Shown one piece after another: positions 26,501 through 29,500 of a stretch of DNA of 64,000 nucleotides. The notes under the pieces were generated by a model. The model worked only from the letters and a program-made list of their open reading frames with translations, did not search any database and was not told the origin of the DNA. The stretch's first letter is position 1; each line of letters starts with the position of its first letter. The translations under genes were made by a program, and so were the position numbers. Source of the DNA: Beroe forskalii (lineage: Eukaryota > Ctenophora > Nuda > Beroida > Beroidae); assembly GCA_011033025.1 (NCBI GenBank), contig WFMF01000039.1, positions 496,001 through 560,000 on the forward strand. The letters are read 5' to 3'.

Positions 26501-29500
26501 CATTGTCAGGAATTGACAAACTGAATCGCTGTCATGAAGTGAATCACTGTCATGAAAATGATGCTTATCTATTCGATGATTAGGTATATATTACACTGAC
26601 TTGTTAAAGCGTCTAACAAGTCATCACATCTCTGATTGCTCCTATGACGACTCACAGGATTGCGGAGAAGCTAAATGTTTAAACCTGGTATTATATGGTT
26701 CTGCTGTGATTTGTTCCCCGAGTTTTATAATAATTCATTATAAGATTGGAAATCATGAACGTTATATTGCATACATTATTGTGATTTTATTTTGATTTTG
26801 AACTTTTGGAATTCACTTTCCTAAGAAAAGAACTGGTATGAGTTGCTTTTCATGTACTTGAAATAATGTTTAATATTACTTCATTACGGGTTATCATATT
26901 TCGTGTGACGTCTACGTGTCCAGATTTTGCAAAGCATAGCCTTGTTTAAAACTTGCCACAAAACATCCATATGCCCTAGAATTTTACTTATTATTAACTT
27001 CTTACACAGTACGGTGTTCATGTGTTATATTTGTTTGCTTATCACACATATCATGTTAAAAACACTGGAGGGTGTTATAAGTGTTAATAATAAAACTGGG
27101 TTGTTTGGACTAGGGTCAAGTGTTCACAACAAGTGCAGCTAACAGGGCAAGTGTCCTGGGTGTGTGCTGAATGTAAGTTTTAAAAGTGAATAGAAGGGAG
27201 TATGCAGTAGATTCTTCTGTCTTGTGCAGCATATGCATGACACTGAAGTTTATCAATTTATCCATTATTACTTATTGTGTGATCAGTGATTGATTGGTGA
27301 TGCTAAAATCAGCAGTAAACTTTTTCATTTTTCCCTCCTGACCGCCCGAGAAAACGAGCGTCATTATTGAACGCATGCTATGAAAGAGCTGAGACAGATC
27401 ACCATACATATGTTAATTTTCTAAGATACTCGGCTAAGAGATGATGTGCAGAGCTCCGTAAGTGATATGAATTGTTCAATGTGTTCCTTTCTTGTGCTGC
27501 GCTCACTCTTTCACTCATTTCATGTCCATCCTACAGCACATACTCAGTGGATATTGCTCCTATGGTATGCAATATATCACTACATAATACCGAACATATT
27601 ACTCGTACAATGTCATGTTCCCACTATCTCAGTATTTGACAAGCAATATAATGATGCGTCACGCTCTGCTCTTTGGAGCATATATCAGCATTCAATGAGA
27701 ACATACTATGACTCTTAGTCAGAGACTGAGACGTTGAATCTTCTTAACCTGATAACAAATGAGGTTTAACTAGGGAGGTACTAGTCTGTTAGCTTGGACC
27801 TTGTTGAACTTCCATCCTCCAATCACTACTAGGCTGACATCTGGTCACTTGGTATAACCAATCTGTATATATTTCAGGCTTAAATCTTATCACTTGGTAC
27901 TTTGGTATCACCAACCTGTACACATCTTAGGCTGACATCTGGTCACTTTGTATCACCAATCTGTATACATTTCAGGCTGACGTCTGGTCACTTGGTATCA
28001 CCAATGATCTGTATTCTGTATACATTTCAGGCTGACATCTGGTCACTTGGTATCATTAATCTGTATACATTTCAGGCTGACATCTGGTCACTTGGTATCA
28101 CCAATCTGGAGCTGGCTGAAATGAACCCTCCTGGCCACGACCTGCACCCAGCCCGAGTATTGCTGAAGATTCCAAAGAGTCCCCCTCCGACCCTCCTGTA
28201 CCCTGACAAATGGTACGTGCTTTCTGCTTCATTCTTGTTTTTGGTATTAGACAATATACAAATATACATACATACATGTAAGAACGTATGAATGGTGCAA
28301 CTTTGTCACTATTATGCCCACATCCCAGACAATGGCCCGATATCCGTATGAGAAGATACAAAACTCATTCGAGATGGACTCTTGTCACAATTATAATCTA
28401 TAATTTATCTTTATTTTTATCTTATTTACTGTATATGTCTCTATTCTGATTTAATAGTTATGGGTATAAGAACTAGAGTATTGCTTTGCCAGAGTGCTTC
28501 ATGTGGTCTATCAACGCAGAGGGTGTTTTCTTGCTTTGTTGATATTGTTAATTAGCGTGTCAGCCAGTTTGACGCTCAACCGGTGTATGAAGTTAGAGTT
28601 CATGGGGTATTATTACCGACTTCGACAGCAATTAGCGAGATATTAAGATATTATAGCGTGCAAAGTTTGCAGATGCATATGCCGTACATCCAGACTTCAT
28701 ATTCACTCAGAGTTTTCAATGTCAAGGCAGCTGAATACCAGAATGCCGCAACGACAAAAACTTCATAAATAATTCGAGGTAACACACTGGGCTACACCAA
28801 ATTCTTAGAAAGTTAGAAGTATGAAGAAAAAAGATGGTTCATGGTTGGTTGATCTGTAGTATAAAGTATAAATTCATTGGAACTGAGCGTGATCTGTTGG
28901 TAGCAGTTCGCAGGGAAGCCATGTAAAATATACCTGGTATATTTACCTTTTCTCTGGGTAAAACAAGAAGTGCCTTTCGTTTACATACAGCAGGTAACTT
29001 AATAATTATAACTAACTTTCAGTTTCAAATTATTCTCTGTAAGGTAATACGCTCTCATCGTGACTAGGTTTGATAAATGTATACATCTCCAATCCTGACG
29101 ATTAGTAGCAATTTTTACAATGAAATGATTTCCGATAAATTTGCCCTACCTTAATACTTGAGTATTAATACTTGAGTATTAATACTTGAGTATTAATACT
29201 TGAGTTAATACTTGAGTATTGGTAGTTTCAATCTTCCGCCCATAGAATCATTTCATGATGCTATGGTGATCAGGAGATGATCATTGATCAGATGATCATT
29301 GATCATTGTCTGACAGAGTAATGAAATATTTGTCCCGACACGTTGTTATAACTTGTAATGATGTATTCTTTCTAGTATGCCCTGCTTTCTCCCATGATGG
29401 GATTGGGCCGTCGCGGCGTGGCAATTTCCAGGAAATATTGAGTGACAAGAAGACAGAAGTGTACGTGATACCATGGATAAATCAGCCTGACTCGGTAATC

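Follow-up and report, generated by a model that had tools for sequence, protein, structure and literature searches.

Tandem copies of a 3' splice site before an exon of an SLK/STK10-like kinase gene: a mirage-type array with siblings elsewhere in the genome

The locus described here raises the question of why the 3' splice site of a kinase exon stands repeated in tandem at the end of the preceding intron, and which of these acceptors the message would use. The window, namely the whole stretch of 64 kb that was analyzed, carries on its forward strand seven coding exons that, spliced in frame, encode 259 protein kinase residues, and the reading frame is intact using only the exon start at 28076. 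The spliced kinase is matched by the Pfam family Pkinase with an E-value of 1.6e-54, and its best matches in the PDB are SLK and STK10 (E 9.7e-83 to 1.2e-79), followed by MINK1 (6.3e-53). By sequence similarity, the kinase domain of the host gene is SLK/STK10-like. The parts of the gene are listed below, where exon 7 denotes the seventh coding exon of the gene model.

17574..17717, + strand: kinase coding exon 1 (from the spliced reading frame)
18197..18364, + strand: kinase coding exon 2 (spliced reading frame)
18885..18992, + strand: kinase coding exon 3 (spliced reading frame)
19211..19301, + strand: kinase coding exon 4, with HRDIKAGN (spliced reading frame)
21952..22024, + strand: kinase coding exon 5, with SDFG (spliced reading frame)
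22497..22554, + strand: kinase coding exon 6, MAPE...DNPYDYK, ending in phase 0 (spliced reading frame)
22555..28075, + strand: intron 6, 5521 nt, with the array at its 3' end (coordinates)
28076..28212, + strand: exon 7, 45 residues plus 2 bases, donor GTACGTGC at 28213 (reading frame and coding score)
32180..32260, + strand: start of exon 8, 28 residues (coding evidence)

Exon 7 obtained a coding score of 11.1, which is reached by 0.16% of 614 control sites, all of them YAG sites in introns of the window. It is followed by an intron 7 of 3967 nt, as calculated from the coordinates. Further downstream, candidate exons were read by eye at 40239-41342, 41930 and 42213, and the tail of human SLK, used as a query, matched one stretch only, with an E-value of 0.44. 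The linker exon of the kinase contains a 15-bp coding repeat that stays in frame (40605-40951). Among the viral contigs, no kinase relatives were confirmed.

The initial annotation had placed six AG/GCT junctions at the end of intron 6, and their positions proved exact to the base when compared with the sequence, the TRF output and a repeat search. The acceptors end at 27832, 27877, 27930, 27975, 28030 and 28075, with steps of 45, 53, 45, 55 and 45 bp between them. The splice signal AG is kept in all six units, each of which continues with 30-33 bases from the start of exon 7, a typical unit consisting of CTGTATACATTTCAG and GCTGACATCTGGTCACTTGGTATCACCAAT. TRF reported the segment 27831-28108 with a period of 45, 5.8 copies and a score of 301, and as an alternative the segment 27831-28105 with a period of 100 and a score of 373; the whole window, dinucleotide-shuffled 20 times, gave a best score of 71. 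The repeat search placed five copies in register, with spacings of 53, 45, 55 and 45. The + strand of the window has the 12-mer GCTGACATCTGG four times, each time within the array, and the - strand does not have it at all. A 531-bp query across the array gave one match in the assembly (216 Mb, 1134 contigs). The array and its copies are arranged as follows.

27831..28108, + strand: six-unit tandem acceptor array, from the end of intron 6 into exon 7 (TRF)
27818..27862, + strand: copy 1, tail TCCAATCACTACTAG, acceptor 27832/27833, 30 exon-start bases, stop after 16 residues
27863..27915, + strand: copy 2, 53 bp, acceptor 27877/27878, second codon a stop
27916..27960, + strand: copy 3, acceptor 27930/27931 (TAG), frame shift leading to a stop
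27961..28015, + strand: copy 4, 55 bp with 10 extra bases, acceptor 27975/27976, frame shift leading to a stop
28016..28060, + strand: copy 5, acceptor 28030/28031, in frame and open, 15 residues added
28061..28108, + strand: copy 6, tail CTGTATACATTTCAG, acceptor 28075/28076, the real exon start

The intron tail of copy 1 is TCCAATCACTACTAG, and copies 2-6 have CTGTATACATTTCAG or close variants of it. Copies 1 and 3 end in TAG and the remaining copies in CAG. Extra bases were found in copy 2, which has 8 and is the most diverged, and in copy 4, which has 10. The motif CATTAAT is present only in copy 5, the other copies having CACCAAT, CACCAAC or AACCAAT. Successive acceptors follow each other without any intervening AG, giving 43-53 AG-free bases per unit. 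Two further candidates were rejected. A putative seventh, degenerate copy at the left (27700-27832) scored 14, and 400 of 500 shuffles were as good. An array of 43-45 bp units in the same intron (23990-24389), whose unit appeared related by eye, scored 16, the shuffles having a mean of 16.5, and 224 of 500 shuffles were as good.

The consequences of using each acceptor are simple to read since exon 6 ends in phase 0. Exons 1-6 were spliced to each acceptor in turn: joined to 27833 they run into a stop after 16 residues, joined to 27878 they meet one at the second codon, and joined to 27931 or 27976 they are shifted in frame and stop. Joined to 28031, they gain 15 residues in frame, making this the only open in-frame acceptor of the five upstream ones, and joined to 28076 they continue into the normal kinase exon. 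The claim of the initial annotation that the acceptor at 28030 is in phase and adds exactly 15 residues, with stops behind the other upstream acceptors, was reproduced in full. Each of the six acceptors has 9 pyrimidines in 13 positions. A scan of acceptor and branch-point features, which started 18 nt upstream and left the CATTAAT of copy 5 outside it, found nothing that sets the last copy apart.

That the unit of this minisatellite is a splice acceptor, as also proposed initially, is correct, and arrays of this kind have been named "mirages" in print (PMC3087553). The term is used there for minisatellite-like tandem duplications of intron-exon boundaries in amphioxus (PMC3087553), and reported examples are Adh3, the globins BflGb6 and BflGb9, TnC and PGBD5 (PMC3087553, PMC3902484). 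Many of their units are described as retaining AG or GT splice signals, and regular splicing is reported not to be disturbed (PMC3087553, PMC3902484). Further traits of mirages are length instability between haplotypes or somatic cells and an occurrence at 5' splice sites as well. Of these features, the SLK-like array shows tandem copies that span the boundary and an AG kept in all six units. As in BflGb6, the duplicated segment comprises the 3' end of an intron and the 5' part of the next exon; its unit of 45 bp compares with 10-72 bp reported for Adh3 and 150-160 bp for BflGb6 (PMC3087553). In contrast to the amphioxus mirages, it lies in another gene and its host is probably a member of another animal group, the known host being a cephalochordate. 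Wnt genes, with 11 matches on six contigs, mark the genome as that of an animal; this low number and the assembly size of 216 Mb speak against amphioxus, which has a larger genome and Wnt set.

NAGNAG-type tandem acceptors lie a few bases apart, unlike the acceptors at this locus with their spacing of 45-55 bp. The duplicated 3' splice site constructs of Reed and Maniatis reportedly also placed near-identical acceptors in cis upstream of one exon; those constructs were engineered, whereas the SLK-like array is natural. A human parallel is the VNTR in intron 18 of ABCA7, likewise a short tandem repeat at an exon splice site with units that are potential alternative sites (PMC5954066). There, retention of one unit is reported to shift the frame, and effects on exon skipping were measured (PMC5954066). 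However, the ABCA7 repeat duplicates a donor in 25-bp units and in many more copies, whereas the SLK-like array is located at an acceptor (PMC5954066). The array also resembles intron gain by tandem genomic duplication, which is described as a tandem duplication around a splice signal within a gene (PMC4974935, PMC2891723), but no new intron was seen here and an existing intron has gained extra acceptors. Internal tandem repeats have been reported to modify human gene structures, new introns included (PMC2812944). Mirages are not mentioned in the sections considered of a paper on amphioxus huntingtin, and no further acceptor-unit arrays were recognised in the open-licence literature, as judged from titles and abstract openings. 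What is new is the abundance and probably the host, not the kind: a well-formed mirage, accompanied by several siblings elsewhere in the genome, in a conserved kinase gene of an animal that is probably not an amphioxus.

These siblings came from a search of the genome for TTTCAGG occurring three times at intervals of 31-61 bp, which identified at least 10 distinct places on contigs C1, C2 and C10, nine of which were fetched. At six of the nine (L068, L069, L071, L072, L073 and L074) the last copy directly adjoins a supported coding exon, with a coding score reached by at most 1.3% of the 614 control YAG sites. The units contain about 10 or more exon bases in five of these six loci, and only about four after the AG in L069. 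The array of L066 looks alike but its exon is not supported, with a score of -0.8 that is reached by 85% of controls; no exon was seen in L067 and L070, and the tenth place, L056, has a degenerate array. Pfam was run on six exon peptides, among them those of L068, L069, L071 (nearly identical to that of L072), L073 and L074; it named one above the cut-off and one below it, matched a third at chance level and found nothing for the other three. The exon of L073 encodes a PDZ domain (E 1.5e-7) and that of L074 resembles PAP2_3, although its E-value of 2.6e-4 falls short of the curated cut-off, whereas the exon peptides of L068, L069 and L071 received no Pfam name. The third match, to DUF4298 (E 0.09), was taken as chance, and two exon peptides searched against the PDB had no match with an E-value of 1 or below.

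L071 and L072, which lie 26 kb from each other in inverted orientation, are paralogues with an identity of 97% in a stretch of 267 bp and of 86% in one of 1840 bp, and the six loci consequently represent five independent cases. Before their common exon start, L071 has three upstream copies and L072 has six, showing that copy number drifts while the exon holds. The pair is located on G000:C1 at about 882 kb and 908 kb and is useful for the study of copy-number drift. The longest acceptor array seen is that of L068 (G000:C2, about 82-83.3 kb, minus strand), which has 39 copies upstream, with units of 38-41 bp; each unit has a pyrimidine-rich end and CAG, ahead of the coding exon.

Frames were counted over eight arrays (SLK, L066, L068, L069, L071, L072, L073 and L074), those of the non-SLK exons resting on coding scores and that of L066 being unsupported. 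Among their 94 upstream acceptors, 30 are in frame, close to the one third expected by chance, and a single one, SLK 28030, is both in frame and open; the corresponding figure for the seven arrays besides SLK is 0 of 89. Conservation of the AG columns gave a mixed picture with which selection on the AG is compatible: mismatches were 0 in L066 (8 copies) and L073 (9 copies), where the other columns had means of 0.32 and 0.49, and 3.0 in L068 (33 copies), where the other columns had a mean of 0.86. Given that the non-SLK arrays were found by the TTTCAGG pattern, their retention of AG is partly ascertainment. A polarity in which the exon-proximal copies are the youngest was not relied on: the rank correlations between distance and mismatch, calculated for the six arrays that had more than four hits, were all positive (0.26 to 0.89, p 0.04 to 0.39), but the hit lists include far-upstream chance matches.

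The best explanation, to which we assign a probability of about 0.72, is that the array is a mirage-type minisatellite that grew across the 3' splice site of exon 7 and is tolerated because the last acceptor is chosen. A short segment over this splice site would have been tandemly duplicated again and again by slippage or unequal exchange, the process that may make this genome rich in minisatellites. Each unit is a compact acceptor that ends in pyrimidines and CAG or TAG and has the copied exon start at the place expected of a branch point, and the upstream copies would be plain intron once 28075 is chosen. Splicing most likely occurs at the last copy only, and the array is probably harmless and presumably without function. 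Occasional use of 28030 would lengthen the kinase by 15 residues ahead of helix F, and use of the other four upstream acceptors should give an mRNA open to nonsense-mediated decay. Sites closest across the exon are reported to be selected where the flanking introns are large, and those closest across the intron where introns are short (PMC9225289). Exon 7 lies between two long introns, of 5.5 kb (intron 6) and 4.0 kb (intron 7), so that exon definition should favor 28075, the acceptor nearest to the donor of its own exon. The branch-point-like CATTAAT of copy 5, read by eye about 16 nt before the acceptor at 28075, might also help the last copy, although this is a weak indication. Use of the upstream copies, at whatever rate, would spoil most messages of this class, and the counts over the eight arrays point to use of the last copy or loss of misspliced mRNA. 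Several observations speak against this explanation. The equal pyrimidine counts provide no local mark on the last acceptor. The usual search is described as proceeding to the first AG downstream, and 43-53 AG-free bases leave room for a branch point and a pyrimidine tract (PMC1431707); from a branch point situated to the left of the array, scanning to the first AG would end at 27832, a dead end. Finally, the upstream acceptors include one, 28030, with an open frame in phase.

The latter acceptor could instead indicate a repeat-bearing kinase isoform with 15 residues inserted before helix F. This is one of two functional readings in the initial annotation, the other being a decoy array that tunes inclusion, and the evidence from the class as a whole makes both less likely. 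Its exact phase and open frame agree with such an isoform. However, judging from kinase structure the insert would repeat the start of helix F within the C-lobe, and since none of the 89 upstream acceptors in the seven other arrays is open and in frame, the SLK copy may be luck; one open acceptor among 94 is more readily understood if the copies are ignored, or their products removed by nonsense-mediated decay, than if they were retained for isoforms, and we regard an isoform as improbable. Only slightly less doubtful is a functional decoy or rheostat, in which upstream acceptors would compete with 28075, four of them feeding nonsense-mediated decay, and copy number would set the kinase dose. 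The AG and the 9/13 pyrimidines in all six acceptors, the stops behind four of the five upstream ones and the dose effects reported for the splice-site VNTR of human ABCA7 (PMC5954066) are in line with this alternative, but the occurrence of similar arrays before unrelated exons fits chance growth better than a kinase-specific device, and amphioxus mirages are reported to leave splicing undisturbed (PMC3087553, PMC3902484). One amphioxus mirage was reported to be aberrantly assembled in a genome draft (PMC3087553), and copies could have been wrongly multiplied or collapsed here as well; yet the six units are distinguished by substitutions and indels, the 531-bp query has its one match in the assembly and the same structure recurs at unrelated exons, making an assembly artefact very improbable.

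Taken alone, the array is a curiosity whose kind is known; a genome that carried many such arrays would be of wider relevance. Very roughly, and with several-fold uncertainty, about 280-340 mirages with the TTTCAGG motif are estimated genome-wide, an extrapolation from one exact heptamer and six supported cases on contigs C1 and C2 (3.84 Mb), or five if the paralogous pair is counted once, one of the six sharing just four exon bases. The broader proposition that mirages are not confined to lancelets and precede hundreds of exons of this genome is tentative, with a chance that falls somewhat short of even. If true, the genome would offer, as a natural library, many near-identical 3' splice sites in competition, and ordinary RNA-seq would show the choice of the spliceosome among acceptors distinguished mainly by their position and copy number. 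This would be a direct test of exon definition, as the spliceosome would have to pick the last copy. Such arrays would also be raw material for new introns and exons, a role as seeds that has been proposed for the amphioxus globins (PMC3087553), and a genome with many arrays would show whether they act in this way.

Minisatellites are common in this genome and some of them fall on acceptors; an attraction by acceptors is not claimed. The window alone gave 63 TRF rows, one tandem array at 57479-58938 having periods of 269 bp and 318 bp with 94-98% matches. An enrichment of acceptor-like arrays was considered and dropped, as same-composition controls span 322 to 2036 hits. In these searches, in which hits overlap within arrays, three TTTCAGG words had 1106+926 hits (2032 in all) and the reversed word had 137+30 (167 in all). 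The same-composition control TTGTCAG gave 1005+1031 and its reverse 258+64, and TCATTGG gave 332+409 and its reverse 860+855. The acceptor-like TTACAGG gave 763+726 (reverse 237+352), and donor-like AGGTAAG arrays 1047+721 (reversed word 249+339). As a single word, TTTCAGG occurs 18 times in the window, its reverse 5 times. Elsewhere in the genome, L062 and L063 (G000:C1080 and C802) both match the PROCN domain of PRPF8; either the PRPF8 gene is duplicated or the assembly contains two haplotypes at these loci.

The downstream part of the kinase gene contains two further repeats that touch on splice signals. An acceptor-like 17-bp word, TCTTTATCTTTAGGGTG, is present in two perfect copies at 42767-42802. 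At 41343-41435, the donor of the linker exon, GAGAAG/GTGTGT, lies no more than 26 bases ahead of a 19-bp array of TTGGCAGGTCAAGGGAAGG with 3.6 copies and 100% matches, and the donor-like AAG/GT and CAG/GT in its units make it a possible donor-side mirage in the same kinase gene.
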